NCBI GenBank assembly: GCA_025201365.1
Contig: JAIXMF010000042.1
Coordinates: 1 to 59,084 of the forward strand
Source: Syncephalis plumigaleata
Lineage: Eukaryota > Zoopagomycota > Zoopagomycetes > Zoopagales > Piptocephalidaceae
Direction of reading: 5' to 3'
Length of the DNA: 59,084 nucleotides
A program made the position numbers and the translations under genes. Below the pieces are notes generated by a model. It was not told the DNA's origin. It worked only from the letters and a program-made list of their open reading frames with translations, and searched no databases. Below are positions 1,259-41,901 of the stretch, in pieces. How positions within the stretch are numbered: the stretch's first letter is position 1; each line of letters starts with the position of its first letter.

Positions 1259-2565
1259 TCATATTTTGATGTTTATTAGAACATAATATCTAGTATGTAT
1301 GAAATTCAACATCATTTTAAATGGTTCAGCTTCATGCATTAATGTTCCTAGTTCTTTTAAGGCTTTTAGTTGTATTTCGTATTGTTGAAGTTGAGAAGAT
1401 GAATTAAGGTTGTCCGGTTGAAATTTCATACTTAGTATGTTATTGTAATTCATGAATAATACGGCGATAAGATCTTTGGTATGTTTAACATCATAGGCCA
1501 AAGCATAAAAAATTGTTACTAGCCTAGATGATGAAGAAGGCAAACTAGGGTTGGCGATTAAAGCATTGAAATCCTTGTAAATAATGACACGATCAAAGTT
1601 GATTAGCCTGATGTCACCAGTAATCTTCCACTTGTGTTTAGAGATCATAATATCTATTATGATAATGGTTAGATTCGTTCATATGATAATAGCAATGACT
1701 TACGCTCTGTCCCAACACTGTTGTATACGACTCCTATTTCATTAAGGATTGAAACAGCTAAACAGCGCTATGATTAGCATTACTATTCAAATCGTTGCTT
1801 CTAATGATACACGTACCTTGCATTATTCGAGCAACCATGTTCGGTATTTGCTTAGCCGCGGCAAATATAGGCTTCCGTTCAAGGAAAGCTCTCACAAGGA
1901 CATACTGGGCAGGCAAATCAAGCACAAAACATCCTATTTCTCCATCTGCCGCTTGAGCGCTATCTATACGTTTAAATAGAATGGCGTCTAATTTCATCTT
2001 GTATTCTGGATCATCTATGCTCTCAACATACTAAAAATGATAATAATGATGGCGTAAGCTAATGATGTCAACTATTATAGCCGTAACTTACATCATAGAA
2101 TCTTTTTGCATTTGCATATCTCTCTTTTGTTCTATAGCATGTGACAAGGACATTTTTATTGCCCCACCTTTCTTCTTTTTGATACCGGTAATTACCACTG
2201 CGCTTTGCCCATATCATCGGATTGAATCTATACTTTCCGGTGAAATGTATAGTTATATCCTTCTTATTCTTTGGATTTACTACTGCTTGTATAGCCATTT
2301 CTGTTGATAATTGAGGTTGTATCTGCTTTTTTTGTGGGAGTGCTGGAAGTATTGGTCTAAGTGCCCTGTTTTGGTTATTAATTCTAACTGGTACATTGGT
2401 GTTCGGCTGTTGATTCAATGGTTGTCCTGCCACTTGTATCTGATTCGGATTATTATCGCTAGATGATGATGGCGCACCTCGCATATCCATGCCATTTGTG
2501 TGATGAGATAGCATCATGCACACACACAGTGTGATTGCAGATAATGAGGTCGTGCTGTATTTCAT
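1259..2565 (-). CDS. Hypervariable secreted protein family, copy 2
   Basis: Four exons: 2565-2092, 2030-1817, 1757-1704 and 1653-1259, giving 378 aa. Introns are 61, 59 and 50 nt with GTAAGT, GTACGT and GTAAGT donors. The phases (0, 1, 1) and the 214- and 54-nt middle exons are identical in copies 3 and 4, which supports the model. The protein has a signal peptide, an Asn/Gln/Pro linker, an IHFTGKY segment, then a C-terminal helical-looking half with a conserved INFD/HFD...KDF core. No known domain recognised. Intron 2 is almost identical to that of copy 4, although the surrounding exon 2 protein differs at nearly half its residues. Confidence 0.8.
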
Positions 2566-2745
2566 GACTATCCCGGTCGAGTAACTTGTTGATATGTCGT
2601 CAATAAACTCGTTTCTTGTAACCGCACTTGTGCTGATCTATATCGATGACTAGTGCAGTGTATTGCGTATACTAAACGGAATGGCTTTGGCGTGTAGTTC
2701 TATGAGGAGACTTGACGACGGTAAAAAAAGAAAAGAAGAACGTGT
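2566..2745 (-). promoter_or_regulatory. Conserved upstream block of copy 2
   Basis: Same module as in front of copies 1, 3 and 4: A/G-rich tract, TGGCTTTGGCGTGTAG, TAAACTCG…, and the leader ending in CGACCGGGATAGTCATG. It marks the transcription control region and 5' UTR. Confidence 0.6.
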
Positions 2746-4210
2746 AACTAATATCGCTAGTCAGTTTTGACATTTCTAATACTCTACTTATAGGTACAAT
2801 GATACAATTTATTTCTATTACAATGACACGTGTAGTCCATAAGCGTACACACGTTGCTCATTGTATTCAAACTGAATCATGGTTGTATACATGCGTGCAA
2901 ATAAAACATTTAGTAAAATAAAATTGGAAATGGAATAGAATCGGTATGTTTTTGATACATTGCTTCATCAAGTCATTCAAGCAAGATACCAGAATTAGTG
3001 ATCAGATAGTGTTGTCACTCATAAGTGCTTGTCTATACACGCTATTAATCAAGATTACAATCACAGTTGACATGTTTCATCAGTGTAAATAGATGGCAGA
3101 GAACACTAGTTTGTTTATCCCATAGAATTGAATGAGTAGACGCCAGAAGAAGTGGGATTCAATTTATTATGTTTCGATTTAGTAAGTATTGGAGATTGAA
3201 GCACCAGAAGGAAATCCATACTTTAGATTGTGCAAATGTGTACAACGAGTGAAGAGTAAGCCGTGGATACGCTGTAGCTTATTAGCGTACAAGATGTGCT
3301 AGGATGCAAGCTAATCGAACGCACAGCTACATTACAGACAAATGTGACGTGCAATGCCATTGGATTCAAGCATGTTGTCGTCATTAGCAAGTCGCTAGGT
3401 AATTGCAGTACACTTTTTATGGTACATGAGACGCTATTAGCTCGCTACAAACGCATGATTACCGAGGCTAGTTGCCATTCAGCTTTTACGATAAGAATAG
3501 CCGACATATTGACATTCGATCCATGTCTCCCTTGCAGCTTCTTCGCTTTGATTACTCCCGCACACACTTGTGTCCTATAGTCCTCGTTTGCCAATAATAC
3601 ATCGGTAGACATCGCACTTGATACAAAACAACTTTAGTATATCCAGTCTATTGCGAGTAGATCGACATCACATCATCGTATTGATCGTATGGACAAGTCT
3701 TTCTGCATAAATGGCAATGACCACTATCGACATGTCATGATAGTCAGTACTTTCATTTTGCTTTAACTATGCACTCATCGTATTGAATCAAACATAAATA
3801 TCTCATCCTCGTATAGGCATACTTGTCATTGTGTCCTTCATATGTAGTAACAAAAAGGAGAATTACCCTATAATGATAAATGATTTACGCTAAGGTATGT
3901 ATAAGCACATATCATTAATAATCTAAACAGCATACACTTGTTGAATAGTTAAGTTTAAAGAAACAATCACAACACATTATGACACTATAATGAATAGGAT
4001 CTATAAGCGACTTTTTTAAATAATAAATAAAGCAGATTTTGCTAGAAATGAATAAATGTAATATTATTATTCATAATAAAGACAAGTCGGCAGAGTGTAT
4101 ACGTTCGTACTGTTCAAATGTGAATCGACAGTGTATATATCTCGACAGCACGTACAGTACAAGTTTACGAAACAAATAAGCCAAAGACCAATCATAAGCA
4201 GGCCTACAAA
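2746..4210. other. Upstream region of copy 2, then unique spacer
   Basis: Up to 3932 this is inverted-repeat sequence that mirrors 36940-38129. Both strands stay open over 3296-3612, so a small gene is possible (listed separately). From 3933 to 4210 I see only AT-rich DNA, probably the 3' flank of the GPI-type protein gene. Confidence 0.5.
3445..3612 (-). CDS. Small conserved ORF in left arm (55 aa), doubtful
   Basis: Reads MSTDVLLANEDYRTQV... to a stop; the right arm has the same 55-codon frame at 37260-37427 with a single amino-acid change (Glu to Gly). The opposite strand is open as well (3296-3580, 94 codons). The few differences between the arms do not clearly favour either frame. The stretch VCAGVIKAKKLQG is faintly like the first strands of a C2 domain, but I would not assign a function. 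It could be a gene relic carried with the duplication. Confidence 0.25.
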   Translation of the reverse strand: MSTDVLLANEDYRTQVCAGVIKAKKLQGRHGSNVNMSAILIVKAEWQLASVIMRL

Positions 4211-4831
4211 TTAAATGAGAGCCTGCATGGCGTAAGTAGCGACGAATGCTGCAGCCAAGCCAAATACTGGCTGTTGAACCAATGCAGGAACGGCAGCGGA
4301 GGTATCAGAGTCGCTGGTATTATCAGCGCTGCTTCTGGGAGTGGTGCTTGACGTGGGTGAGCTGGTAGCAGAGTTGGAGGCACTGCTAGGACTGCTACTG
4401 GTGGTGGTGGTGGAAGAAGGAGTAGACGCGGCTGGTGTGCTGGCAGCAGCAGGATTGTTATTGGCGTTATTATTATTATTATTGCTGTTGCTGTTGCTGT
4501 TGCTGTTGGTGTTGGTGTTGGCATTGGTGTTGGTGTTGGAGGCTGGACTTGGGACTGCAGGTGCTTGCGCGCCATTAGGAGCCGCAGCAGTAGCAGGTGA
4601 ATTAGCGACAGCCGGTGCTGGTGCTGACGGAGCAGCAGGAGTTGAAGGAGCAGCAGGGCTTGCTGGAATAAGTGGAGGAGCATTGGCTCCAGTCTCTATC
4701 GAGCCATTGGGGTCAGTGTCTTTATCGGCAGACCAGGCGCTACCATCCTTGAACGTGTTGCCTTGCGGGAGAGCCGCGACACCAATAGCCGAGCAGGCAA
4801 GAGCGATGAAAAGAACACGAAGGGAAATCAT
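4211..4831 (-). CDS. Ser/Thr/Asn/Pro-rich GPI-type cell-surface protein
   Basis: Single exon, 206 aa. Residues 1-20 (MISLRVLFIALACSAIGVAA) are a signal peptide. The body is low-complexity Ala/Pro/Ser/Thr with a central Asn-Thr/Asn-Ser run (residues about 98-125). The C-terminus is hydrophobic (FGLAAAFVATYAMQALI), as expected for a GPI-attachment signal. This architecture fits a heavily O-glycosylated wall or plasma-membrane mannoprotein. There is no catalytic domain. The repeats should make length variable between strains. Confidence 0.8.
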   Translation of the reverse strand: MISLRVLFIALACSAIGVAALPQGNTFKDGSAWSADKDTDPNGSIETGANAPPLIPASPAAPSTPAAPSAPAPAVANSPATAAAPNGAQAPAVPSPASNTNTNANTNTNSNSNSNSNNNNNNANNNPAAASTPAASTPSSTTTTSSSPSSASNSATSSPTSSTTPRSSADNTSDSDTSAAVPALVQQPVFGLAAAFVATYAMQALI

Positions 4832-6220
4832 AATGCCAAATTGATAGAAGGAGAAAGAGAAGAAGGAGAATGTTTAGAGAACGAAAGAAATGTGTAAGGT
4901 TTACTTGGTGCTAATGTGATGTAAAGAAATGATATAGTAAGTAAGGCTAGACTAGACGTTATAGCGAGCAGGCAAGCAAGCAGACTGGCAAACAAGTAAT
5001 TTAAAAAATAATGCAAACTAAAGGGATATTAGTTGAAGGGGGGAGATAATGCGAAAAGGCAAGCAATATAACGGAGTTGGGGATGGGTACGATATTAGTA
5101 GACACGGCTAAAGGATGAGACAGTGCTAAAGGCAGATGGTAGTGAAACGCGGTTACAAGAGTGGCAAGTGAATGTTGATCAATGTGTTTGTAGTCGCAAA
5201 CTAGGAAATGAGGCGAGCGAATGGATTACGCATGCAGGTGGAGGGACTTTTTTTTGCTATTAACTACTCGTGTTTATCGGGGCACGATGATACTGTTCAT
5301 TTATATAATGGTGCCACATGTTACTCCGCCATATTCAGAGGATGGGATACTTGATGGTGGAACTACATCGGATTTGTATAGAAAGAGTAGCAATAGGAAG
5401 AGGAAGGCCCCAATCTGGTAGTGACTAATTTTAGACCTGCCCAGTGTGGTAGTGGGCAACTAATGCCGTATGACATGATGTGTGAATAAAAGGAAGAGGA
5501 AAAGAGAGAGAGATGGGAGACAAGAGACGAAAAGTGCAAATGCTCGTGTGACTAGTAAGGTTGAAGTTCCGTGCATTTATCCATAAAGCAACTCCACCTT
5601 GGACGAGGTAATAATGATAAAGATAATAATGATGATAATGTACTTGTTAATGGTTGACACGCCATCAACATCAATGCATATACATTTATGCATGCATGTG
5701 TGTGTTGCTAGGAACAGATCTAATCGATACAGTGAAGCATGTTTTATTTTGTACATTATCGATGAATGGAACGAATGGTATATGACAGTAATAATGAGCA
5801 AGTCAACAACAATAACAATAGGAATAGTAATAATACACAGTGGATTGATACATCAATGCTAAATAGCAGTACTTGCCTTATCATTCATTCATTCATTCAT
5901 TCATGTCCACTCTACAATCTGGTAGTGTTCCTGTCATATCATATGCACTTCACCCCTTGTTCCATTACCAATTAACTAGTGATCAATGCACATCATCATC
6001 ATCATCATCATCATATCCTAAGCCGCCATGCCATTAATTCATTGCATTGCGTGGGTACTAAACTCAATGTTTCATGGTTTAGTAACACAACAACGTGTTA
6101 CCTTTTTTCCTTGTCTTTTTCCGTAAATATTGTTGTTATTGTTATTGTAACTGTCGTTGTCGTTGTAATTGTTGTAGTTCAACATTGTTGTAATACACCC
6201 ACGCATACGTGAAAAAAAGG
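4832..6220. other. Intergenic region, no gene seen
   Basis: About 1.4 kb between divergently transcribed genes (GPI-type protein to the left, carnitine acyltransferase to the right), so it holds both promoters. It contains short simple repeats: a CATT run near 5884-5902 and a CAT run near 5990-6013. Open frames here are short and lack recognisable content. Confidence 0.6.
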
Positions 6221-6571
6221 ATGACATTATCCGATTTTGCTCAGAATCAGTTGCAACTGCCACAGCTGCCATTACCGCAGCTGGAAACGACGTTCAATGA
6301 GTACCTTCGCATGTTGAAACCGTTGCTTACGGCAAATCAATTTGAAGAGGCAAGGCTGCATGTGGCGGACTTTTTGAAACCGAATGGTTTTGGCGAGCGT
6401 TTACAGCGTCGATTGAAGGACGCCACCGTGCATGGTCGACAAAGTCAGGGCAATTGGTTATGGCAAATGGCCATCAACTACGAGTTTCTCCAGTGTCGTA
6501 ATCCACTTCTCGTCAAGACCAATACATTTACACTTTTCCGCGACGATCCTACACTTGTACGCGCTAGCACC

Positions 6572-6605
<34 letters not shown>

Positions 6606-7185
6606 TTAGTACCAGTACCACTATCACTGATCCTAAGCAGTACAGTCGACAAGGCGTGTACACCATGCCACAAATAAAACGGGCCGCTCGTTTAATTAAC
6701 GGATTCCTCGACGTGAGAGACGCCATGAACGAGGGACGCTATCCGGAAGATCAATTAAGCGCGGGCCGTGTCTGTTTACATCAATACCGTTACCTATTCG
6801 GTGTGGCTCGTATTCCCATGCTAGAGTGTGATGTTCTACGCGGGGGTGACGAGCAAACTTACACCAATCCCGTACGTCATATTACCGTGCTAATTAACAA
6901 TCAGGCATATCATATGCCCGTCTATACCGAAGAGGGCAAGCGAGCCACTGATGCTGACCTGGAATAGTAAGTGGATGATCGGTCGTTTACTATTCTGTAA
7001 ATACTAAACGTACTCTTGGTGACGACTTTCAGCCAGCTGTGGTCCATTGTACGAGATGTCGAGTCACGTACCAGATTAGACGATCCTGTCTGTATCTGGA
7101 CTGGTACCGAGCGTAATCATTGGGCCATGGTATGTTAACTAACTGATTTGCAAGTGTGTACACTTTGACTAACATTCGATGCCAT

Positions 7186-7220
<35 letters not shown>

Positions 7221-8666
7221 TAGGCTCGAAAACGATTAATTGATCATTCCGATGTTAATCTAGCTGCATTACATGATATTGAGGAAAGTTTATTCGTGGT
7301 AGCGTTGGATCGATTTTGCGGAAAGGATATTGCTCAACAGGAGGGAAAACGTATTGTTGGACTGGATGAAAGTCATAGGAATGGCTTTAGTTCTAACGAG
7401 AACAGGTGGTTCGACAAGAGCTTCTCGCTAATCATCGAGTCTGATGGTCGTGCCGGTATACAATGCGAGGTAAGCGGGCATCAACAAGTTCGATTCGCGT
7501 GCAACTGAATAGACTTCTAATGGATTTTAATGTGTGAAATAAGCATGCCGCCTGTGATGGACTAGTTCCAAGTAAAGTGGCGGCAGAAGCATTGAGACAA
7601 CCGGTGCAACTTGTAGATACGGACGCCACTCGGCATTGCCATTCAAATCTAGCACCGGTGAAAGCACTTCACTTTGAACTAGACGAGCAGTTATACTTTA
7701 TGCTATCGAAAGCTCGTCAAGAAACACTAGATATCTCGAATAATTCCGATTCTTGTTGTTTACAGTTTAATGACTATGGATCTGAATTTATAAAACACGT
7801 TGGTGAGTAAATGCATGAATATAGATATAGATATGTCAATGAACGATTACACATTCTAACGCTCCTTATTTACAGGTCATCTGAGTCCTGATGCCTATAT
7901 AGAAATGGCATTTCAATTGGCATTTTTCCGAATGCACAATGAATTCGCATCGGCTTGCGAGTCTATCGGCATGCGAGGTTTTATCAAGGGACGTACCGAG
8001 ATCGGTCGAGTGTTCAGCATGGAATGTCGCGACTGGTGTATAGCCATGAATGATCCGGAGACAACGGTTAGTAAATGATGCTATCACTCTCATTCTATAC
8101 CCGTGATTGATCCATTGTCAACAGGTCAAGGAGCGATACAATCTGTTGGAAAAGGCGTGTCTAGTGCACAAGGATATGATCCGACGTGCACTTCGTGGAG
8201 AAGGGGCATCCTGGCATTTACACGCGCTCTATCTGATGCATCGTGAAGGAGAGGAACACCCGGTATTCACGGGTACCGCGGCAAAAGAGGGCAATCGATG
8301 GCGAATCTATGCCGGCTCACTCAATTCAGCCGAGGCATTCTATTGTATGTGATGTATTGCCACTGTTGTGTATACACTTATCATTGACCAATATTTACTT
8401 ATATTTATTTGTACATCATTATAGGTGGTGGATTTGCATCCTGTGCCAAGGATGGTTATGGTATTGGCTATCATTTTCGAAAGAATGCAATCAATATCGG
8501 TATTGAATGCGAGCGGAAAAGCAGCTTCACCAACTCGATCGCTTATCGAAGTACGCTAACAAGTGTGCTACGCGAGATGGCCGACATTTGCAATTTAGTC
8601 AATGACAACGACGAGATGCCATCGCAGCAACAGTCTAGCGCAATTCAATACGATGCATGTCTCTAG
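6221..8666 (+). CDS. Carnitine O-acetyltransferase family enzyme
   Basis: Seven exons: 6221-6966, 7033-7129, 7224-7469, 7544-7802, 7876-8066, 8125-8344 and 8425-8666, giving 666 aa, about the usual length. The family transfers acyl groups between CoA and carnitine. Visible hallmarks are the N-terminal LPQLPLPQLETTFNEYL, the NRWFDKSFSLI strand followed by CEHACDG with the catalytic His (about residue 364), SPDAYIEMAFQLA, and the GRTEIGRVFS motif; the KDGYGIGY strand lies near the C-terminus. A Thr-rich insertion encoded by an ACT repeat lies near residues 115-130. No PTS1 (ends ACL) and no obvious mitochondrial presequence, so location is open. I chose ATG 6221 because the frame upstream has no ATG. 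Intron 2 contains a CA microsatellite. Confidence 0.9.
7182..7218 (+). repeat. CA dinucleotide microsatellite in an intron
   Basis: Pure (CA)n run inside intron 2 of the carnitine acyltransferase gene, ending just before the acceptor CGCATAG. Confidence 0.9.
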
Positions 8667-9325
8667 GTATACCCAGTAAGAGGAATGGTTACATATACCA
8701 ATGTCCAATTCGTGAATAGTAATAATTAAAATGCAGTGCTGTCTATAATGGATGGCGTGTATTTCATTTATAAAGAATAAATGTAAATATATATCACAAA
8801 TGATGTTTATTTCAGTTGAAGGAAACAAGCTATAGAGTAAATCAATATCGTAGAATGAGAATGCTTCTGCATCACGTGTTTTCTTTTCGTTCTCTTCTCT
8901 TCTCTTCATCCTTATTCACCTACAACTTGTACAGTATGTAGTGTCGCCCATTCGAATACGGGCCTATGAGCGACCTTGACCAACGCCATATTTTTCCCTG
9001 TTCAAATTTTTAATCTGCCGAAGGAAAAAGCATAGCTGTATAAATAGAACGAAGAAATTCATTGTCAGGCACGCATAAACTTTCTCATCCAAAAAAAACT
9101 CCATCGTTATCCTATTAAAATATTGCTGCTGCTGCTGTTGCTGTTGCTGCAACTTAATCATCAGATATCGCCGACTTGCACCGTGATAGCTGAATATAAA
9201 TAAATTCTGTAGGGATTTCCTCACGCACAGATTTCTTATTCCTCATTCTTTCTTTTGTCTCTCACTCTCTCTGTTCTTATTTTATTATTTTCGGCTCATT
9301 CAGCGGTTATTGCCACTATTCCACT
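8667..9325. other. Intergenic region, no gene seen
   Basis: 3' flank of the acyltransferase gene (AATAAA-like signals near 8775) and promoter of the downstream GPI-type protein. A CTG/TTG trinucleotide run lies at about 9123-9151. Confidence 0.6.
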
Positions 9326-9811
9326 ATGCGCTCGACGACATTAACTTACGTACTATTTGCATTGGCCGCTATAGCCGCTGTAAACGCACAGGGCGACTCG
9401 CCATCCCCTGGTCCTTCGCCGTCTGCTCCGGCCCCTACACCTAGTCCGTCCCCATCGCCTGCACCTTCGAGCCCTGCACCAGGTAGTTCCAATCCACCTT
9501 CGAGCAGCAATCCACCGAGCACTTCTGGTCCCACGCCAACACCCGCGCCAGGACCAACACCTGCGCCAACCTCACCATCCGCGCCACAACCAGACTCACC
9601 TGCACCAGGATCCAGCACCACTATCGTCACGGTTATCGATCCGGCTAACTCGGCGGGTGGCACGAAGGCTACCGCACCAACAATGCGTCCAGACAGTAGC
9701 AGTAGTGCAGCGAGCGAGCGAGTCATCGAGTTTACCACGACTGCTGCCACCACAACCATTGTATCGGTACTGACCGCCACTATAGGTTACATTGCTGCTC
9801 GTTTCCTTTAA
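9326..9811 (+). CDS. Pro/Ser-rich GPI-type cell-surface protein
   Basis: Single exon, 161 aa. Signal peptide at residues 1-21 (MRSTTLTYVLFALAAIAAVNA), then about 75 residues of Pro-Ser/Pro-Ala repeats, a short TTIVTVIDPANS segment, and a Ser/Thr-rich stalk. The hydrophobic end (VLTATIGYIAARFL) fits a GPI signal. Likely an O-glycosylated wall or membrane protein. The architecture is like that of the protein at 4211-4831, but the repeat composition differs. Confidence 0.78.
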   Translation: MRSTTLTYVLFALAAIAAVNAQGDSPSPGPSPSAPAPTPSPSPSPAPSSPAPGSSNPPSSSNPPSTSGPTPTPAPGPTPAPTSPSAPQPDSPAPGSSTTIVTVIDPANSAGGTKATAPTMRPDSSSSAASERVIEFTTTAATTTIVSVLTATIGYIAARFL

Positions 9812-9953
9812 TCGAAGCGACTCAAGTAGTGTTTCATACGATAATAGTTATAATAATAAATATGATTTTTATTTAAGAAAACACTCGATTTTAGTAATAG
9901 TAATAGTAACATCATTCTAGCGAATATCATCAATTCATAGTTATGTGATTCAT

Positions 9954-11117
9954 TTATTCACGACGATCACGACTATAACTGCGTGAACTATGATGGCGAT
10001 GATGACGCGTACGACTACGACTACGACTACGCTCGCTAGGTCGTGAACGCTCCTTTTCATCATGGTCTCTATCACGAGAGTGCCTACGATGATGATGACT
10101 ACGATGATGATGATGACTACTACGATGATGATGTTGATGTCGGTCACGCGATCTCGACCGGGAACGTGTTGTACGACGTTGTTCATCATTGGAACGAGTG
10201 TTCTGTTCTTCTTGACGTTTCGCCTCGCGTAGTCGGTCTTTCTCTCGTTCTATCTCGCGTAGTCGTTTACGTTCGGCTTCCACTGCCGCCTCCTCTTCAG
10301 CCTCCAATTCATCGGCTAGTGGACTGACACGCGGCTCGAGATCGCCCATTTCCTCAAGAACGTGTCGTTTTTGCAAGCGTGGTAAAATAATATCACATAC
10401 GCGTTCCTCATGCAATAAAGCATCGAGTAATTCATCCATGCAAATAAGATCGAATCCACCTAGAAATAAAATATCTAATAAGTGAATAATGCCTTATATT
10501 CGAATACTATCGCGCTACTATTACTGCTATTACTGCTATTAGTAATAGTGCATATGTCGAATATAATTACCATTACCACGACGACGTAACTTTCTATAGT
10601 CTGCCAGTAATGGCTCTAAATGTCGATATATCTCTACGCTATTACCCACTAGACGCAGGTAGAATGCAGCTAATGCAGTTAAATATCTAAACAATAATTA
10701 TTAAGTATTTCGTGCCGTGCTTTGATGGGATAATCACACGTACTTGAAGTCTTCGTTCATTAAATACTCTAGAATGATTTCTTTTTCCGGTTGAATTTGT
10801 AATAGTTTGAGCGTTAAACATAGGAATTCGGTAGGTCGTATGTTTGCATACTGTCCACCGATATACTCGAGATCTACTGCTTTATCTATGAGTGATTCCG
10901 CTTTACAATCAAAGATCAATAACTATTAGCAATGATCATACAAGAGTTGTCGTTGTCGTTGTCGTCGTTATCGTTTATGGAACTCACCTGTCAACGCAAA
11001 GCAGTGCTCCTTCCAGTACATCGAATCATAGATTCGTGAGCGTATAATCTTTTCTACTAGGAACTGTGGATTGGTTCCATGTACAGAAATAACCTCGGGT
11101 TGTGTTGTGTCAGCCAT
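9954..11117 (-). CDS. PRP38: Pre-mRNA-splicing factor PRP38
   Basis: Four exons: 11117-10988, 10900-10744, 10686-10571 and 10459-9954, giving 302 aa. PRP38 is a U4/U6.U5 tri-snRNP-associated (B complex) protein needed for spliceosome activation. The sequence shows the family core: VHGTNPQFLVEKIIRSRIY, WKEHCFALT, TEFLCLTLKLLQIQPEK, EYLMNEDFKYLTALAAFYLRL, and ERVCDIILPRLQKRHVLEE. The C-terminus is an acidic/coiled-coil stretch followed by an RS-type tail rich in Arg, Ser and His. The intron 1 acceptor is a poor one (TGTAAAG), but it is the only one that keeps the frame. Starts 92 bp from the divergent YIPF gene. Confidence 0.92.
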
Positions 11118-11209
11118 GTTGATGTGAAGGGAAACAGGAATGAATCGCGTAAAAATTCGACTAGCTTGTTTCTTTTCCTTCCACTTTGTTGTAATACCGA
11201 TTCGTCATC
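11118..11209. promoter_or_regulatory. Divergent promoter between PRP38 and YIPF gene
   Basis: Only 92 bp separate the two start codons, so both promoters and both 5' leaders must lie in or near this gap. T-rich tracts are present; no TATA box is evident. Confidence 0.5.
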
Positions 11210-12564: not shown

Positions 12565-12747
12565 TGGCTCTACACTTTGGGGGTTTCTTTCTTGTAATAA
12601 AGAACGTGGTGTGTGTGTGTGTATGTGTGTGTGACACGTGAATCAGTTACTATTCAATGAACATATTGCAATCATTATAATTATTAAGCAAAGTGTTAAT
12701 TATCCATTAATATTTCTTTGTATTGTCTCTATGATTTATCGGTAGGT

Positions 12748-14359: not shown

Positions 14360-14400
14360 TACAAGGCTATACCTCTTGATTAACGCTGTTAGCCTTTAGT
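14360..14400 (+). repeat. Left terminal inverted repeat
   Basis: Pairs with 16664-16704 in inverted orientation; the best conserved core is CGCTGTTAGCCTTT. Confidence 0.6.
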
Positions 14401-29355: not shown

Positions 29356-29619
29356 TCAAGTTTATTTGCTTATACGATCATATTGAAACTACTCTTTATC
29401 ACTAGATGATGATGATGATGATGATGTCTACTCATTGATATGTCTTGTTAGTTGTCGTATTCTTATAAAATAAATATATTGCTATTAATAAAGAAAATAC
29501 ACCACTTGATCCATAATAATGATCATTACGAGGATTGCATTACTCGATTATGATTATATAGACCAGTAAGGTTGTATTGACATTTATTTATTAAGAACAT
29601 AATAGACGCCATTGAGCTA

Positions 29620-30082: not shown

Positions 30083-30198
30083 GATATTAAAGAAACAAGA
30101 ATGAATGGAAAAAAGCCTAATGTTGTGTACACAAGTATGTGGATGTGTGGTTGCTTAATCCTGCTATTGTATTCCTTCCTTTTCTTCTTTTCGCAACA
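30083..30198. promoter_or_regulatory. Divergent promoter between COX16 and CWC15
   Basis: 116 bp separate the two start codons. A TTCTTTTCGC tract lies near the CWC15 start. Confidence 0.5.
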
Positions 30199-31098: not shown

Positions 31099-31302
31099 TG
31101 CATACATATACATACGTGTATGTATGTGTGTGTGTGTGTCTACGTATTGTTCTCTACTTATATTGCTTTGTTTTCATCAATACATTACGCTGCTGCCGCT
31201 TCTTTTTAAATAACATAAAATAAAGATATATTCACATATTATTAATTATAAGCATACATTTGAATGAATGGTCGCCTATAATGATGGCCGTGTCATGTGG
31301 GG

Positions 31303-32296
31303 TTAATTGCGTAATGCTTGCAAACGAGCTTGCATCGCTTCAAGTTCTGGTTCACTTTCTTCTGCCGCATCAATTGGCTCCACAGTAATCGTCTCAGATG
31401 GGACCTGCGTATATACACGTCAGTCAATGATGACAAGTATACACGCTATCGTATAATAATTAGTGATTACAATTACACTTACCTCAAGTGGTGGAGGCAC
31501 AGCACTGGCTTCGCCCAATTTGCCTAGAATACCAAGTACAAATAGTTAGCATCGAGTAGGTCAGCGTAGGATAAATAGAGAAAAAGACCACTATACCATC
31601 GGTAACTTCGAATAGCACTTTTTCCACTTCTTCATCGGCTTCATCCTCCAACTCGTCGTCATCTATCATGTCCATGGTGTCCTCCATCATCTCCCCGATA
31701 ACGCCCGCTTTCATCATCTCCATCGACATGGCCTGCATTTGTGCCGAGAGTTCCGGTACACGTACCAATCGATTGACCGCCTTCATTACTTCAGTGCTTT
31801 GCTTGAGCGTACCCGACATTTTTAGCATAGCTATTTACATACATAACTACATGTAAACTAATAGTCTAGCAACCGTATATGATTCAACTTACCTAGCTGA
31901 TGTTGCAGTTGCATATTGATCGAATTTAAATGTGCCTTATTCGTGTGAAGTCGTGTCTTTTGGTGTCGCGACCGTACCAATTCCTTGGCCAGCATTCGAC
32001 AACTAGTTGTATCCTTCCTTCCGGCTGCTTGTTTTATCGTTCGCTTCACCTTGAGCTCTTCCGCTTCAATACTACGTATTTGACGCTCTAACTGTCGTTC
32101 TTGACCACGAATGTGTTGTCGCCATTCTCTCACCTTGATTGAGATTTAGTTAATATACAAAAGTGATGTAGAGCCTTATGGTTGCCGCTACTACTACTAC
32201 TACTAGCAATATCATGACTCGTAATCTCCAACAAAAACCACCTACCTGTTCTTCAGGTTTTTTAGTACGGAATATAAAACGCGATACAGCTTCCAT
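31303..32296 (-). CDS. VPS24: ESCRT-III subunit VPS24/CHMP3
   Basis: Five exons: 32296-32246, 32133-31893, 31830-31597, 31523-31483 and 31404-31303, giving 222 aa, the usual size. A basic N-terminal helical region (REWRQHIRGQERQLERQIRS) precedes an acidic C-terminal half (DTMDMIDDDELEDEADEEV). MKAVNRLVRVPELSAQMQ and EVEKVLFEVTDGK match CHMP3. The last helix (EPELEAMQARLQALRN) is a MIM1 motif for Vps4. It acts in endosomal membrane scission. The ATG 51 codon-bases downstream in the same frame is used because it gives the usual CHMP3 N-terminus. Confidence 0.93.
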
Positions 32297-32520
32297 ACTT
32301 AAGCGATAAATAGAATAAAAGGAATAAAAGGAATGAAAATGAGCCAATCTGATGTAGTCACAAGTCGATGAAGAAGGGTTAAAGGTAAAGATTGTAGGTA
32401 TCGCTATTTTTTAATTGTCTAAATAATAATAACAATGATGATTGATGAATTTGTATTTACATTATAGTATACGTGTCTAAACATCTAAATGATCATTTTA
32501 AGATATAGAATGTAGTGACT

Positions 32521-33060
32521 TACAGGCTTTTTCCATCCAATTTGCGCAGTTAGCCATTTGTTGTTACGAATAAATAATAGTTATAATAACACTTACGTAT
32601 TTAGATGTGGTCGCGATAACGCCACGGTTAATTTGATTTTTGTTGTTTGGACCCCCGTTGATCTTGTCCTCCTTTTCTTGAACGTTTAGAAGGAACAGCA
32701 CCTCGTTGAAATTGTGTTGGAATACGACCATCAGCACGATGACTGCGGATAATCTGAATAAAATTCAGACATGCAGCCATATCCCGATTCCATAAACGAT
32801 AATCAATAGCTACTTGTAAGTACATGACATGGCAATATCCAACTATACTAGTACACTTGTATCATCTACCTTATAGAATTGATGATGATAGTTATCGCTA
32901 TCAGTAAATGATTCATTACTGAATACTGAATTGTTATTATTATGCTGTGTTAATTGGCATATCTATGATGATAATGGTGTTAACAATTGTGTTAATCTAT
33001 TTATTAATGAACTGCAAACGTTAAAGGATAAATGCGCAAATTGGATGGAAAAACACTGTA
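32521..33060. mobile_element. Nonautonomous TIR element, 540 bp, with TnpB-like fragment
   Basis: Left end TACAGGCTTTTTCCATCC, right end (inward) TACAGTGTTTTTCCATCC, both continuing AATTTGCGCA: an inverted repeat of about 28 bp. Positions next to each end match the 34321 and 46564 elements. It keeps a 65-codon C-terminal TnpB/Fanzor-like fragment on the minus strand and a TAG/TAA-rich simple repeat lies just outside its right end. Confidence 0.8.
32628..32825 (-). pseudogene. TnpB/Fanzor-like C-terminal fragment
   Basis: 65 codons: DYRLWNRDMAACLNFIQII, then GRIPTQFQRG and a Lys/Arg/Gln-rich tail. Homologous to the C-terminus of the remnant at 14457-14804 and to the last catalytic-Asp motif (NRD) of TnpB/Fanzor RuvC domains. 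The rest of the gene is absent. Confidence 0.55.
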
Positions 33061-33135
33061 TCATACGTAGTAATAGTAGTAATAGTAGTAGTAATAGTAG
33101 TAATAGTAGAAGATGACGGCGTCTTTCTTTTCCTC

Positions 33136-34083
33136 TTATACTTGATCGCTTTCAAACTTTTTGTACGGAGCACTATGCGATGACATGAAATTGGTCTTAT
33201 GCGATCCCGAGTCTGCCAGTTGCCTTGATTTAATGCCTAAACCATAAGCTATTGTCTGACCAATAATAACGAAATCCATAGTCAATTGGAATAATCCACA
33301 TAGTAGGAATTGTAATGGCGCTTCCGTCATGTAGTAATAACCTGTTTTGAATAGGTCACCGCCCAACCAACTTAAAAGTACCACCGGACTAATAGATATA
33401 GATATATAGGCGATATATAGATGATATATCGATGAGCATACTATTGCAACTGTAGAGTAATACTCACCTGAAACCTTCCACGGATTTACGACGATAATTG
33501 GTAAGTACTTGCGGTACAGGTAGCATGGCCTCTGTACCAACTGCCAAATAGCCGATAATATCGATATACCATTCCTTAGGTCCTAGCAGCAATTGTAGTA
33601 CACCCAGGGCGACTGCAATCTGAGCCAAAAAGCTCATATAATCAGAGAACTGCGGCCAGCGCCAAATACTACGTTCATGCATCCAGGAACCGTTTGGCTC
33701 GTCAAGTGCCCGACAACGAATGCAAAGATGGAGTAGTACAATTTGAGCACCTATCATGAGTAAGCTTTGCCATAATAGCGTATCGTCAAAGCGACGTCCA
33801 AACCTATAAAGTATCGAGGGATTAGTATATCATAGCTGTGTCAATAAGTGTTCAATAATACCAGAAGAATATACGTAATAAGCTGTAATTATGAAATAAA
33901 AGGTTAACATCTTGTGAGCGCACTAGACAATTGCTCTGTAACTCACTTGCCAACCAGTAGTAGACCGCAAATAGCGGTAGAGAAACCACGACTGGATCCT
34001 GTACGTCGCATAGTAGTGTATTGGTCGATATAGGCCGCTGGTGGGCCAAATATCATGGCTAATTGAAGTGCAGCACCAATCAT
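33136..34083 (-). CDS. PQ-loop membrane protein (SLC66A2/ANY1-like)
   Basis: Four exons: 34083-33947, 33882-33862 (21 nt), 33803-33468 and 33388-33136, giving 248 aa. Two PQ-loop repeats are visible: GPPAAYIDQYTTMRRTGSSRGFS near the N-terminus and PVPQVLTNYRRKSVEGFSP near residue 155. LRIFFWFGRRFDDTLLWQS links them and matches SLC66A2 (PQLC1) and yeast ANY1. Seven membrane segments are expected. ANY1 influences phospholipid asymmetry in Golgi and endosomes. The 21-nt exon was placed because it restores LLRIFFW in frame. An upstream in-frame ATG at 34155 is possible but gives an atypical N-terminus. Confidence 0.82.
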
Positions 34084-34320
34084 AGCGAATACGTAGTAGT
34101 AGTAGAAGTAGAAATATTGAGGAATGAAAAGAGTGTTAAAGAATCGTGTATACACGAAGGCGTTTCGTTGTCAACGATGTGATCACACACACACACACGC
34201 ATATATCTATCCAGTTTGAAAATGATATCACCGTCATCATCATTATCATCATTATCTGATATTTGATATTTGAAATAAAAATACTTTATTCAATCTTTAT
34301 CCTATCATTTAATCATCTAG

Positions 34321-34562
34321 TACAGACCATTTCCATCCAATTTGTGCAGTTAGCCTTCTGTTTTTACGAATAAATAATAGTTATCACTAATTGTAATATA
34401 TGATATAGCGATCATTAATATCTCCCTCAACTGCTAGTGCCATGACAACTACTCAATAACAATATCAATGCGATGATGGTGTTTACAATTGTGTTAATCT
34501 ATTTATTAATGGACTGCAAACATTAAAGGATAAATGCGCAAATTGGATGGAAAAACACTGTA
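34321..34562. mobile_element. MITE-like TIR element, 242 bp
   Basis: Left end TACAGACCATTTCCATCCA, right end ...AATTGGATGG then AAAAACACTGTA. The interior resembles both the 46564 element and 16555-16704. No coding capacity. It ends 3 bp from the stop codon of the sphingosine-phosphate lyase gene. Confidence 0.8.
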
Positions 34563-34565
34563 GGA

Positions 34566-36417
34566 TTAGGCAATGTAGAGGGCATCGACAAAGCCTTTAG
34601 CAACATCGCCAATAAGCGATTTGTCCGGAATGGTGGCTGCCATGCCATAAATCGCCGCTTGTCCCTTCTTGTTAAGTGATGGATCAGCGCGTACTTCATC
34701 CACCGCCGCTTGCAAGTCTTTGCAAAAGTCGTCGGCGCGCTTGACTGTCAACAATGTACATGAAATGTGTACTGCATCTGGTTCCTGCAGCGAGCTCAAA
34801 TGCCATCCACGACGTGACATGGCGTCATTAACGGCGTGTACATTCAATGGGGCATCCGCCGCAAATGAAAGCGCCGTCATAAGAGGCTTGCCAAGTATGT
34901 GTAGTCCGCTGATCTCCTCGATACCTTTAGCGATACGACGCGCGCACTCAACAATCTCACGTGTCGATTCGACGTAGCCGGCCTCGCCTATCGACATGAG
35001 TGCCGTCCAGCATGAGGCAATCAACGCGCCAGGACGTGACCCGGCAATGGAGGGTGAGGCGTACACGCCGCCCACCCAGGTAGGCGTGACAAAGTACTGA
35101 TAGGAGCGTAGTTCCTTGGTGCGGTACATGATAACTGACGTGCCCTTTGGTGCGAATCCATACTTGTGCGTATCGCATGAGATGGAGGTCACGCCGTCAA
35201 CGCGGAAATCGAACGGTGGCATATGGAAGCCGGCCTTTTCCATGAATGGTGCGATAAATCCACCGAGGCAACAATCAACGTGCATGCCGATGCCGTGTCG
35301 TTTGGCCAGCTTGGCTAGCGCGCTAATGTCGTCAATGGTACCGTATGGGAAATTGGGAGCAGATCCGGCTAGCATAATGGTGTTGCGATTAATGGCGCGT
35401 CGTACTGCCTTCAAGTCCACTTGGAAGGTCGTTTGATTGACAGGTACATGCACTAGACGAATACCGAAATAGCTGGCCGCTTTATCGAAAGCCGCATGTA
35501 TCGATGCTGGCACGACCATTTCCGGCTCGGTGATGCCTTTCGTTTGGCGTGCCCAGTCACGATAGGCTTTACAGGCCATGAGTAGACTTTCCGTGCCGCC
35601 ACTCGTCATGACACCGCCGGCTGATGCTGGCGCATTGTACATGTCTAGAATCATCGCAACAGCTTCAGCCTCCATTTTCCGTACGCCAGGGAATACTTCG
35701 GGATGCAACGGGTTGCTAACGCTGAATAGACGATAGGCATCAGTGCACAGATTAGTGAGTGATTCACCGCCGTGATAGACGGCACCTGAGATACGACCGT
35801 CCTTCCAGTCAACCTTGGACATGCCGTGATACCTAAAGATTAATGATGGAAAACATCATAACAACAAGTGTAAGTATTATATAGCAAAATATAAAATAAG
35901 AAATAATCATGCAATTATGACTATTGTTGTTGTTGTTGTTGTTGTAAACGTACTTTTCTAATTCTGCACGGATTTGTTCCTCGCTAAATCCTTGTTTCGG
36001 TAGATTGAGATAGCGAGTTTCTCCAGGACGCATTGGCGCCACATCTTGTTGCATCTTATGAATTACTTTATCCAGTTCCGCTTGTATCTTGCCACGAACA
36101 CCAGGAAGTTGCTTGGCCCTATTCAGTAGTATCTATTGCCATTTATAGTGGTAACAGCATAAACAGCAGTAGCAGTAGCAGTCTTTTAGTTTGCATTCGA
36201 TATTACATTGTTGCGTACATACCCTAAAGATACTTTGCTTCCATTCCACTAGCAAGCCCACCGGACCACGTAGACGTAGCAGATAAACGAAACGTGATAA
36301 GAAACGATAGATAACCATAATGACGATTATATTCTTGGCCAGTTCCACTCGTGGCGACTTCAGCCACTCTTGCGCTAATAGCCACGATATGGCCAGTCGA
36401 GATTGCACATTAGCCAT
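34566..36417 (-). CDS. DPL1: Sphingosine-1-phosphate lyase
   Basis: Three exons: 36417-36223, 36132-35954 and 35832-34566, giving 546 aa. A PLP enzyme that splits long-chain base phosphates into hexadecenal-type aldehyde and phosphoethanolamine, ending the sphingolipid pathway. The N-terminal membrane anchor is at about residues 28-50. SGAVYHGGESLT, VMTSGGTESLLMACK and HVDCCLGGF are family motifs; the PLP lysine is in SCDTHKYGFAPKG (about Lys348). Length is typical. A MITE lies directly behind the stop codon and supplies an AATAAA about 60 nt downstream. Confidence 0.95.
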
Positions 36418-36939
36418 CGTAAGTAATGGTAAGGTGTAAAGTAAAAAGAAAAAGGAAGCTAGCTCAACGGTAACTGAGGCGACAAGAAAGTAACAATAAA
36501 GAAGTAGCAATTAACGGCGAGACCATAGACATTGAAATGGGTTAGGCGAGAACAAGTGGTGCAGTCAAACAATGAATAATGTCTCAATTGGCATTAAAGG
36601 CGGCAGACTTCGGCATTCAATCCCGTGGAATTCAAAGTATGTCATTGTTGTGATTCGTGTCACAATCGTGATTGGTCAGGCCTATCAGCTCACGTCCTGT
36701 AATGGATAGACTGGCACGTAGAATGGCAATCAATGGGAAAGAGAACGAGTCAGATGGCTAACAAGTGATCATGGTCAATAGGCAAGAAATCATTCATGTA
36801 CATGCCGTAATACAGTAACAACGTTCTATCCTATAATAAATGCTGAAACACATGAACAATCATCATCAGTAGTTGTGTTCTACTTGAACTAATGATGTAT
36901 TTCATATCATTTAGAAAGAGAGAGAGAGAGAGTAATGAT
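36418..36939. other. Spacer between DPL1 and the right repeat arm
   Basis: Promoter and 5' leader of DPL1, ending in an AG microsatellite (36913-36932) at the junction with the inverted repeat. No gene seen. Confidence 0.55.
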
Positions 36940-37259
36940 TGCTGTTTAGATTATTAATGATATGTGTTTACACATACCTTAGCGTAAATCATTTATCATC
37001 ATATGGTAATTCTCCTTTTTGTTACTACATATGAAAGACACGATGACAAGTATGCCTATACGAGGATGGGATATTTATGTTTGATTCAATACGATGAGTG
37101 CATAGTTAAAGCAAAATGAAAATATTGACTATCATGACATGTCGATAGTGGTCATTGCCATTTACGCAGAAAGACTTGTCCATACGATCAATACGATGAT
37201 GTGATGTCGATCTACTCGCAATAGACTGGATATACTAAAGTTGTTTTGTATCAAGTGCG

Positions 37260-37427
37260 ATGTCTACCGACGTATTATTGGCAAACGAGGACTATAGGAC
37301 ACAAGTGTGTGCGGGAGTAATCAAAGCGAAGAAGCTGCAAGGGAGACATGGATCGAATGTCAATATGTCGGCTATTCTTATCGTAAAAGCTGGATGGCAA
37401 CTAGCCTCGGTAATCATGCGTTTGTAG
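37260..37427 (+). CDS. Small conserved ORF in right arm (55 aa), doubtful
   Basis: Counterpart of 3445-3612; the opposite strand is also open (37609-37292, 105 codons). Coding status and strand cannot be decided from two copies that are so similar. Confidence 0.25.
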   Translation: MSTDVLLANEDYRTQVCAGVIKAKKLQGRHGSNVNMSAILIVKAGWQLASVIMRL

Positions 37428-38129
37428 CGAGCTAATAGCGTCTCATGTACCATAAAAAGTGTACTGCTATCGCCTAGCGACTTGCTAATGACGACAACAT
37501 ACCCGGATCCAATGGCATTGCACGTCACATTTGTCTGTAATGTAGCTGTGCGTTCGATTAACTTGCATCCTAGCACATCTTGCATGCTAATAAACTGCAG
37601 CGTATCCACTGCTTACTCTTCACTCGTTGTACACATTTGCACAATCTAAAGTATGGATTTCCTTCTGGTGCTTCAATCTCCAATACTTACTAAATCGAAA
37701 CATAATAAATTGAATCCCACTTCTTCTGGCGTCTACTCATTCAATTCTATGGGATAAACAAACTAGTGTTCTCTGCCATCTACTTACACTGATGAAACAT
37801 GTCAACTGTGATTGTAATCTTGATTGATAGCGCATATAGACAAGCACTTATGAATGACAACACTATCTGATCACTAATTCTGGTATCTTGCTCGAATGAC
37901 TTGATGAAGCAATGTATCAAAAACATACCGATTCTATTCCATTTCCAATTTTATTTTACTAAATGATGTATTTGCACGCATGTATACAACCATGATTCAG
38001 TTTGAATACAATGAGCAACGTGTGCACGCTTATGGACTACACGTGTCATTGTAATAGAAATAAACTGCATCATTGTACCTATAAGTAGAGTATTAGAAAT
38101 GTCAAAACTGACTAGCGATATTAGTTACA

Positions 38130-38306
38130 CGTTCTTCTTTCTTTTTTTTACCGTAGTCAAGTCTCCTCATAGAACTACACGCCAAAGCCATTCCATTTAG
38201 TATACGCAATACACTGCACTAGTCGTCGATATAGATCAGTACAAGTGCGGTTACAAGAATCGAGTTTATTGACGATATATCAACAAGTTACTCGACCGGG
38301 ATAACC
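38130..38306 (+). promoter_or_regulatory. Conserved upstream block of copy 3
   Basis: Same module as upstream of copies 1, 2 and 4, with a CTTCTTTC-rich tract, CTACACGCCAAAGCCA and the leader ending CTCGACCGGGATAACCATG. Confidence 0.6.
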
Positions 38307-39607
38307 ATGAAATACAGCACGATTTCATTATCTGCAATCACACTATGTGTGTGCATGATGCTATCTCATCACACAAATGGCATGGATATGTGGAGTACAC
38401 CATCTCCATTCACCAATAACAATCCGAATCAAATGTCGATGACGGAACAGCAATGGAATCAGCAGCCAAATATTAATATGCAATCTGGAAGCAATAACCA
38501 AATTAATGTAGCTACACCGATACATCCAAACAACATCCAAGGACAATCTCAATCACCAGAGAGAATGATTATACATGCTACAGTAAATCCTGATGATAAG
38601 AACGATATAACTATACATTTCACTGGAAAATATAATTTCGAATCAATGAAATGGCCAAAGGACCCTAAATATACACAGCATCAAATGAAAGAAGAGTGGA
38701 ATGATAAAAATGTCCTAGTTGTATGTTACAATGATAATGAAGGATACGAAAGAGTGAAGGCATTCTATGATGTAAGTAGTTGTAGCTATATCGCCTAATG
38801 ACATTAGCTCACATTATTAGTTAGTATATCGAGGGAATAACAGATCCAATATACAAGAGGAAATTCGACGCCATACTATTTAAGCGTATGGATAATGCTC
38901 AAACAACAGATGGAAAAATAGGCTGTTTCGTATTCAATTTACCTAGTAATTATATTACACTGAGGCGATATTTTTTCCGAAATCCCACATTCGCCATGGT
39001 TAAACGTGTACCAAACATGATTGCCCAATTAATGGAGGGTATGCATGTTGGCAATAGCAACAACTTAGGCATTAGCACTAATATTAATAATAATGCTGTC
39101 TAGGAATTTCATCTCTTAATGAAGTAGGCGTTGCGTATAATAACATTAAAGCAAGGCGTAAGTCGGTGCTTTATTATACCAACAAAAGCTAACCGTATTA
39201 TAATAGATGTCGTGCTTTTAACGGATACTTTGAGAAATGTAAATGGCCTCAAGCTGATCAACTTTGACTTCTCGATTGTCTACAAAGATTTTGGAGAAAG
39301 TATGGCCAGGTCAAGATTTTACCAAAACATAAACGAGCTGTATGCAATTCGGCAAGCTTTCTTGGTGGATGTTGGGCAGACTAGTGCGCTCATTACCAAT
39401 TTATTTTATAATTACGATAGTGTACTAACCACAGAGTTCAAATTCACCGATCCTGCCATGTCCGCTCAATTGAAGCTATACCATGCGCAGCGAAAATCCT
39501 TATGGAATATAAGCAAATTGATGCGTAAAGACGATGCAAATCGTATTATGTTGCATTACATACTCAGCAATGACTACAATGTAATAAAAACACCAATCAA
39601 GGAGTAA
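38307..39607 (+). CDS. Hypervariable secreted protein family, copy 3
   Basis: Four exons: 38307-38771, 38825-39038, 39104-39157 and 39207-39607, giving 377 aa. Signal peptide MKYSTISLSAITLCVCMMLS, Asn/Gln-rich linker with MSMTEQQWNQQPN, and IHFTGKY shared with copy 2. Intron 1 has two adjacent AG acceptors (38820, 38824); only the second keeps the frame. Exon 3 reads GISSLNEVGVAYN, homologous to AVSILNKIGVVYG of copy 4, which confirms the splicing. Function unknown. The C-terminal half again carries LINFDFSIVYKDF. Confidence 0.8.
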
Positions 39608-40552
39608 TTAAATAAACAATATATTGCTATCATTCACTGTAATGATTGCTAGACTATTGATATACTACTATAAATAGCTTCACTATTGCAAGAGATCCTT
39701 GACTGTTTAATCGATCATTATTCCAGTGACATTGTTGATTTGTACTGACAGATTGATATTTCATGTAATGTACGACTGCTTAATGATCAATTCATTGCAA
39801 TACAAACAGCACTAGTTGGCATGTACACGTATGATCTATGCCAACCATCATTGATAGTATCACTTGATAATTCATTCAGTATGCCTAAGCAACATCAACT
39901 TGAATAGATAGATAGTGAGAAATGGTTTATATAGTAGAGAGCAGACAAATGCTTATTCATTGCCGTAATGCAATTCAAATCCACAAGAAATCATTGTCAT
40001 TTCATTAGGAATGCTACTTTAATGGCACTAGTCATCACTGTCTGATGCTTGGCTTTACTATGTCATGGTTGACGTTGATCCATAAGATGGAGACTGTTTG
40101 CATCCTGCATTGTATTTATTTGTATATGGTATCCATTCTCGTCATTCGAATGATCCATAGAACATTCATAACGAATAGTTGATTGACAATTTTGAATACA
40201 GCATCCAAAAACAGCTACCCATAGCCATGATTCAGTTCAAATATAGTACACGACATAGGAATGCTTTTATAGACTGCACGTGTCATTGTAAGATATTTAA
40301 ACTCCATCATTGTATTTACAGCTATAAATGGGTGATAAAAATGTCAACACTTGGCTATCAATAATAGCAGTGTACGCTCTCTTCTTCTTCTTTTTACCGT
40401 AGTCAAGTCTCCTCATAGAACTACACGCCAAAGCCATTCCGTTTAGTATACGCAATACACTGCACTAGTCGTCGATATAGATCAGTACAAGTGCGGTTAC
40501 AAGAATCGAGTTTATTGACGACATATCACGAAGTTACTCGGCCGGGATAACC
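39608..40552. other. Intergenic DNA between copies 3 and 4
   Basis: 39928-40214 is the perfect-looking match to 899-1187. 39610-39925 is unique to this arm. No convincing gene; the open frame 40179-40364 mirrors 934-749 in the left arm. Confidence 0.55.
40375..40552 (+). promoter_or_regulatory. Conserved upstream block of copy 4
   Basis: Fourth copy of the shared module; the leader ends CTCGGCCGGGATAACCATG. One of the few visible changes is in this GGCC. Confidence 0.6.
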
Positions 40553-41901
40553 ATGAAATACAGCACGACCTCATTATCTGCAATCACACTATGTGTGTGC
40601 ATGATGCTATCTCATCACACAAATGGCATGGATATGTGGGGTACACCATCACCATTCACCAATAACAATCCGAATCAAATGCCAATGACGGAACAACCAT
40701 GGAAGCAACAGCCAAATACTAATATAGAGTTTGAAAGTATTAACTGGAATAATGCATTCAGACCAATACTTCCGGTACATCAAAGTAACAAACAAGCACA
40801 ACCTCAATCGGCAGAGAATATGATTATACGTACGGCGGTAGATCCAAGAAATAAGAATATATATATACATTTTCCCGATAAGTACAAGTTTAAGCCAATG
40901 GGATGGTCAAAGAATCTTAGAATTTACCGACAGCAAAAGGAAACAATGTGGGGAGATAAAAAAGTACTTGTACTATGTTACAAGGGAAGCGAAAGATATG
41001 AGAATGCAAAGAGATTCTATGATGTAAGTTACAGCTATAATACTTTATATCATTGGCTTACACCATCATTATTATTGTTATCTAGTATGTCGATAGAATA
41101 GACGATCCAGAATACAAGAGGAGGTTAGGCGACATTTTATTTAAACGTATAGCTAATGGCCAAACGGAAGACAAGAAAATGGGATGCTTTGTATTTGATA
41201 GATCTCACAAATATATTTTCATGCAATCTTTCATTAGGCGAACCACTACATTCACCATAGCTAAACAAATACCCAACATGGTTGCTCGAATAATGGAAGG
41301 TACGTGTATCATTAGAAGCAACGATTTGAATAGTAGCGCTAATCATAGCGCTGTTTAGCTGTTTCAATCCTTAATAAAATAGGAGTCGTATACGGCAGCG
41401 TTGGAACAGAGCGTAAGTCATTGCTTTTACATATGAATGAATCTAACCGCTATCATAATAGATATTATGGTTGCTGAGGATGGTATGGGGCGTATACATG
41501 ATATTAAACTGCTCCACTTTGATCGTTCAACTGTCCACGAGGATTTCAGAGAATTAGCGGCCAATCCCGATATGTCTCCAACATCTAGATTAACAGCAAT
41601 TTATAGTACTTTTGTAGCGGATGTTCAACAAACTAGTTATTTTATCAGCTCACTATTTCTCTTCTACAGGAAAATACTAACCGTAGAATTTCAATTGAAT
41701 GATTATAGTATGGCTTCTGAGCTCCGGCTATACAACATGCAACGAATAGCCTTAGTAGAACTGAGTGATATGATGGTTAAAGCTGAATCTCCTATGATGG
41801 TGATGAGTTACATGGTTTACGACCAATATCACATAATAGCAAGTAAAAGTTATGAAGAATGGCAGATGTTTTATTTATTACACTCGAAATTTAGTCAATA
41901 A
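40553..41901 (+). CDS. Hypervariable secreted protein family, copy 4
   Basis: Four exons: 40553-41023, 41086-41299, 41359-41412 and 41462-41901, giving 392 aa. Signal peptide identical to copies 1 and 2. Exon 1 ends AKRFYD, exon 2 carries IDDPEY, ILFKRI, GCFVFD and AKQIPNMVARIM, exon 3 AVSILNKIGVVYG, exon 4 LLHFDRSTVHEDF. Introns of 62, 59 and 49 nt. Intron 2 is almost identical to that of copy 2 while the flanking exon 2 protein is only about half identical. No domain recognised. Secreted or surface protein, possibly effector-, recognition- or wall-related. Confidence 0.8.

Follow-up and report, generated by a model that had tools for sequence, protein, structure and literature searches.

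A multicopy family of putative secreted pseudokinases of the mycoparasite Syncephalis plumigaleata, probably diversified by exchange between gene copies

Contig C321 of the zoopagalean fungus Syncephalis plumigaleata carries four copies of a large, variable gene family with a conserved leader, and here we describe these copies, their relatives and the way in which they appear to have diverged. The window analyzed is the entire contig (59,084 bp, within a 32.64 Mb genome of 383 contigs). Copy 1 (a; 1-561, minus strand) is truncated by the contig end and retains exon 1 (561-91), intron 1 (90-38) and the start of exon 2 (37-1). The other three, found like copy 1 where the original prediction had placed them, have stop-free models of four exons and three introns ending at 1259, 39607 and 41901: copy 2 (b; 1259-2565, minus strand, 378 aa; exons 2565-2092, 2030-1817, 1757-1704 and 1653-1259), copy 3 (c; 38307-39607, plus strand, 377 aa; exons 38307-38771, 38825-39038, 39104-39157 and 39207-39607) and copy 4 (d; 40553-41901, plus strand, 392 aa; exons 40553-41023, 41086-41299, 41359-41412 and 41462-41901). 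In each of them, exon 2 measures 214 nt and exon 3 measures 54 nt. The upstream flank of copy 1 (899-1187) is identical in inverted orientation, at 289/289 positions, to that of copy 4 (39926-40214); about 285 bp without differences had been predicted here, starting at 39928. The 5' sides of copies 2 and 3 are paired in a further inverted duplication, whose arms (2344-3932 and 36940-38528) are 94% identical, and the upstream DNA in the window is mainly of two types, one in copies 1 and 4 and the other in copies 2 and 3. For copy 4, a shared 5' module of upstream DNA, leader and N/Q-rich linker can be placed at about -400 to +200 (40153-40752, plus strand; approximate limits transferred from other copies, whose switches between upstream DNA and body map there), and a predicted kinase-like domain extends from the exon 1 core to exon 4 (40811-41901, plus strand; limits transferred from structure model P0001).

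The family is much larger than this locus. A genome search, which the original prediction had proposed, gave 46 gene starts taken from 144 scored matches, a lower bound that leaves out several fragments and a relative on contigs C80 and C340. A stop-free four-exon model was obtained for 34 of them, including c1_2069, which begins within the leader and has no start codon there. Among the remaining 12, copy 1 is truncated at the contig end, seven have a stop inside 140 codons, and four were not carried further. C321 matches C318:268,793-306,665 in three collinear blocks at 98-99%, with 98.4% across 7,001 bp around copies 3 and 4. The 25.0 kb of C321:17,001-42,000 correspond to 35.4 kb in C318 (268793-304171), which has about 10 kb extra, and no C318 match was found for C321:21.9-32.8 kb and beyond 44.5 kb among the best candidates scored. 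When kinase hits in the genome were examined, 18 of 33 rows formed, by our own grouping, nine pairs of near-equal score across different contigs (C31/C124, C112/C153, C373/C309 and C246/C212 are among these contig pairs). From these pairs and the match of C321 to C318, the assembly is read as retaining both haplotypes, and we infer that C321 and other small contigs are alternative haplotypes. Because of such haplotype duplicates, each haplotype would carry fewer than 46 copies.

The encoded proteins begin with a leader of 0.93 mean pairwise identity, in which a signal peptide was judged by eye. In model P0001 (15 rows; predicted local distance difference test score, pLDDT, 63.8; predicted template modelling score, pTM, 0.60), strands at 70-124, a helix at 127-142, strands at 158-183, a helix at 200-216 and strands at 229-244 read as beta-1 to beta-3, alpha-C, beta-4/5, alpha-E and beta-6 to beta-8, and the model has a two-lobed kinase topology. 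When it was used in two structure searches, kinases or pseudokinases were the best 50 of 50 matches in each. Compared profile to profile with six kinases from the same genome, the family gave P 0.00019 and a probability of 47% over 126 columns, and a control with forced alignment of three unrelated proteins from the window gave P 0.57. In a search of PDB with a nine-member profile, kinases made up 16 of 19 weak rows (STK17A, PknG, RIPK1; E at least 0.074). A kinase fold without the catalytic Asp is strongly indicated. The HRD site reads mostly Y-N-S, with the catalytic Asp kept in 0/34 modelled members, and the DFG site mostly N/H-F-D, with the metal-binding Asp in 5/34, a loss of motifs which suggests pseudokinases. 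Nucleotide binding may still be possible, since Lys is present at the end of beta-3 in 29/34. A conserved Cys pair (C123 in beta-3, C172 in beta-5) might form a disulfide, and the most variable regions are the beta-1 to beta-3 loops, alpha-D, the activation segment and the C-lobe loops. The best structural matches of the model include IRAK-family proteins (IRAK4, IRAK3), BubR1, KKT14 and MLKL, and identity to these and other kinase folds is 7-13% over aligned residues (VIA, best 50 matches). These are intracellular proteins, and a common fold is no proof of common function.

Homologue searches gave 2 hits with a single copy, 5 with the nine-member profile and 1 with a divergent relative, each from S. 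plumigaleata; the searches require shared 5-residue words, so distant relatives could escape them. The divergent relative, P0006 on C340, reads Y-N-E at the HRD site and matches the family profile at E 5e-26. Its loci, C340:792500-796500 (L062) and C80:20000-24500 (L061), encode a long, Q-rich and repetitive N-terminus; the similarity between the two is about 97.5%, they are probably alleles, and P0006 is presumably a single-locus relative. A subfamily at C135:177250, C364:11199 and C347:26084 has an exon 1 linker lengthened by an insertion of about 40 aa, which is also present in the mosaic gene c20_5. No description of the family was found in the titles and abstract openings of the top-ranked open-licence literature matches.

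The original prediction had proposed that introns, promoter and leader are shared by all four copies while the mature exons evolve faster, as under diversifying selection. Its individual comparisons were confirmed: intron 2 of copies 2 and 4 is nearly identical (2/59 differences), their exon 2 proteins are about half identical (40/72), and copies 1 and 4 are similarly diverged in mature exon 1 (84/132 identical). Sharing by all four copies was only partly confirmed, because intron 2 of copy 3 differs at 28/59 positions from copy 2 and 26/59 from copy 4, and there are two upstream types. Between copies 1 and 4, the upstream 650 bp show 31/649 differences, and the exon 1 core has a synonymous divergence (dS) of 0.87 and a nonsynonymous divergence (dN) of 0.33. 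Between copies 2 and 4, dS is 0.83 in the exon 1 linker, 1.04 in the exon 1 core, 0.70 in exon 2 and 0.76 in exon 4 (0.18 in the short exon 3 and 0.06 in the leader), dN in the same four segments is 0.29, 0.32, 0.27 and 0.55, and introns 1-3 diverge by 0.19, 0.035 and 0.086. Such heavy silent-site divergence in exons is unlike the prediction of amino-acid selection alone. As a general rule, conserved introns beside diverged exons did not hold either, since copies 2 and 4 are extreme: introns this similar or more occur in 4/84 family pairs of like silent divergence, and in 2/118 and 3/95 pairs for other matched comparisons at this locus, counts which include the tested pairs themselves.

Part of the data would nevertheless fit diversifying selection that acts on point mutations of the mature protein, against a neutral background of introns and flanks. 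All three codon positions are changed equally (42/348 each) in one close pair, the presumed alleles c344 and c112, and among pairs in the 0.1-0.2 distance bin, position 2 (0.145) has diverged more than introns (0.106) or fourfold sites (0.100). Site model M2a is also preferred over M1a (twice the log-likelihood difference, 2dL, 68.7), with a positive class of 3% of codons at a dN/dS ratio (omega) of 21. Because kappa is about 4, dS by the method of Nei and Gojobori (NG86) was not trusted alone, and fourfold sites, introns and maximum likelihood were added. Over the mature part of 11 close pairs, the maximum likelihood omega is 0.649 (2dL 15.7 against omega = 1), and the five segments give 0.54, 0.88 (exon 1 core), 0.48, 0.60 and 0.76 (exon 4), of which 0.88 and 0.76 are indistinguishable from 1. 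Values for single pairs run from 0.31 to 1.01, with just one of 11 above 1. A family-level dN/dS above 1 was therefore not found, and dN > dS was rejected as the main cause. In addition, changed codons are adjacent more often than expected (0.30 vs 0.16; 0/2000), and silent changes lie near replacement changes (95/129 vs 68.6 expected; 0/2000). Such clusters resemble transferred tracts, some of them closer to other copies, so the positive-class signal may stem from mosaic tracts; a small class of positively selected codons may exist, with the 2dL of 68.7 being confounded. As the main cause of the conserved flanks and introns, which the original prediction had favored, we consider diversifying selection unlikely.

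Purifying selection for a regulatory or RNA function could instead keep introns, promoter and leader while exons drift. Short introns are constrained by splice signals, and the 11 closest pairs show differences at 40/1520 intron core positions (0.026) and at 48/1312 fourfold silent sites (0.037), a modest gap judged without a formal test, with 0.037, 0.033 and 0.046 at codon positions 1, 2 and 3; introns are below fourfold sites in four of five distance bins. Against this, upstream DNA in the closest pairs (0.071) is further diverged than body-segment silent sites (0.000-0.025) and later reaches a plateau, a pattern that fits exchange rather than constraint and for which constraint on introns and flanks was rejected as the main cause. 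The introns of copy 3 are moreover very different, and an Rfam scan of the window gave no matches at gathering score, by which a known RNA in the window was rejected. We regard this explanation as having a poor chance. Still less credit is given to a mutagenic process that targets exons and spares introns, such as hypermutation or template-driven diversification, which appears very improbable. The exons of copies 2, 4 and c318_254 are indeed far above their introns, silent sites included, but family-wide the introns are close to fourfold sites, and many tracts match existing copies, so that exchange may be enough without exon targeting.

Evidence for exchange comes from the different histories of the gene parts. 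As body divergence rises from bin to bin, values climb from 0.07 to 0.19 for upstream DNA, from 0.12 to 0.20 for leader silent sites and from 0.09 to 0.21 for the linker before they level off, whereas exon 4 silent sites rise from 0.025 to 0.41, which points to a 5' module with a separate history. Statements on chimeras and conversion rest on the assembly and on presumed allele pairing; if the assembly is correct, they are as directly observed as the family, its anatomy and its silent-site divergence. For copies 1 and 4, the flank identity has the appearance of recent ectopic conversion: the 289-base flank is 93% identical to C318:302097-302385, upstream of the presumed copy 4 allele, and from -600 to -400 copy 4 is 100% identical to copy 1, with the presumed allele partly at only 84-86%. 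Recent homogenization of flanks by conversion is what the original prediction had named as evidence against itself. Three genes appear chimeric. Upstream of -150, c318_254 is of copy 2 type (94-100%; copy 1 36-76%) and from +200 of copy 1 type (96-100%; copy 2 56-90%), while its 3' flank resembles copy 4; c350 combines upstream DNA that matches c329_1098 (95-100% beyond -400) with a body that is mostly that of c329_1091; and c24_95 has the upstream DNA of c312_46 (97-100%, -1200 to -500) and the body of c312_44, with a patch at +1200 in exon 4 that is 99% identical to c312_40 against 83% for its partner. The three switches can be placed no more finely than between about -200, -400 or -600 and +200, since the parents are alike there, and all three precede most of the body. 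As the copies are unlike further upstream, homologous exchange would be confined to the 5' module or the body. Across 13 presumed pairs, another copy beats the partner by 3 points in 122 of 562 comparison windows, and the pairwise homoplasy index (PHI) is significant in five overlapping sets (four smaller sets and the 46-gene DNA alignment; 0/2000). An assembly artefact, with haplotype mixing and misjoins at the repeated 5' module creating false chimeras and extra copies, would fit the apparent haplotype duplicates and the position of all three switches inside that module. However, contigs reach 3 Mb, the loci checked are free of N, and the short exon 4 tract of c24_95 is not explained by a single misjoin, so we consider an artefact improbable.

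Two further observations concern the surrounding DNA. Comparison of C344:14000-19000 with C112:1610235-1615192 shows an island of divergence over the gene with a low background on the 3' side (4-25% across the gene, 0-1% at 1.7-2.6 kb past its start). In the window, 32521-33060 holds a dispersed repeat, about 540 bp long and bounded by inverted ends of 72 nt, which looks like a miniature inverted-repeat transposable element; related pieces lie near 34321-34562 and 46564-46800, and at least 36 further genomic matches at 89-93% were found among the best candidates scored.

On balance, we favor as probable, with some reserve, that these genes form a secreted pseudokinase family of a mycoparasite, diversified by copy exchange with the 5' module decoupled from the body. 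Each protein would start with a leader peptide, followed by a disordered linker rich in N and Q and by a protein-kinase fold that lacks the catalytic Asp. DNA would be exchanged among copies through gene conversion and unequal crossing-over, the 5' module would move separately from the pseudokinase body, promoter-leader units would thereby be joined to new bodies, and exons would turn mosaic. This decoupling, more than faster selection on exons, would make flanks seem conserved and exons diverged. Several points weigh against this reading. The chimeras could be assembly errors, the pairing of haplotypes is presumed, secretion is suggested by a leader judged by eye, and PHI on the codons of all 34 modelled members is non-significant (86/1000). 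Pfam gave nothing above cut-off (Pkinase in 2/9 members, best E 0.016), unrelated families scoring equally well or better by chance; the best PDB profile row was a non-kinase, an anti-CRISPR protein (E 0.054); pLDDT of the P0001 model is below 50 at 1-65, 254-272 and 337-363; and Foldseek TM-scores are 0.25-0.47 across the best 50 matches.

Syncephalis is described as mycoparasitic (PMC10386755, PMC6784888), and for such genomes these papers discuss secreted enzymes and secondary metabolism; the word 'effector' does not occur in the main text of PMC6784888 and occurs once, for other groups, in the text of PMC10386755. The closest likeness in style is the Toxoplasma ROP family, which is secreted, expanded and clustered and consists mostly of predicted pseudokinases; diversifying selection has been reported for many members, and ROP5 reportedly binds host IRG proteins (PMC3635977). 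Toxoplasma is an unrelated parasite; compared with ROPs, by description only, the present family is fungal, has an N/Q-rich linker, three introns at conserved places and copies on many contigs, and shows an average dN/dS below 1 and exchange between upstream DNA and body. There is no sign of special kinship; no ROP chain was among the best 50 structure matches, an absence which excludes nothing. As multicopy variable families, Theileria Tpr and plant RPP8, the latter studied for inter-copy exchange (PMC6771003, PMC10730637), are also alike, but their proteins are different, and here exchange joins a 5' upstream-leader module to kinase-like bodies.

We infer secretion, a binding function and a host-facing role: the proteins would be delivered at the interface between parasite and host fungus and bind as scaffold, decoy or inhibitor, and their variability would track host targets or host recognition. 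A surface or developmental protein, for adhesion, self/non-self recognition or spore or haustorium structure, is doubtful yet the most serious competitor to such a role, as the evidence is limited to leader and fold and both the N/Q-rich linker and the Q-rich P0006 would suit it. High copy number, mosaicism and apparent species restriction are typical of interaction proteins; they speak for a host-directed effector without discriminating. In either case, the predicted multicopy, unusually variable, conserved-leader family of effector or recognition style is supported.

In conclusion, exchange between copies can mimic exon-focused selection where few copies are compared. If our reading is true, a large secreted family of an early-diverging fungus that parasitizes other fungi would gain both a fold and a concrete mechanism of diversification, and parasite pseudokinase arsenals would have a fungal counterpart. 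More tentatively, and rather unlikely at present, the 5' module may act as a recombination anchor in a cassette system, through which promoter-leader units are joined anew to pseudokinase bodies from a genomic library; if true, this system would be a self-renewing secreted binding repertoire of the mycoparasite against other fungi.

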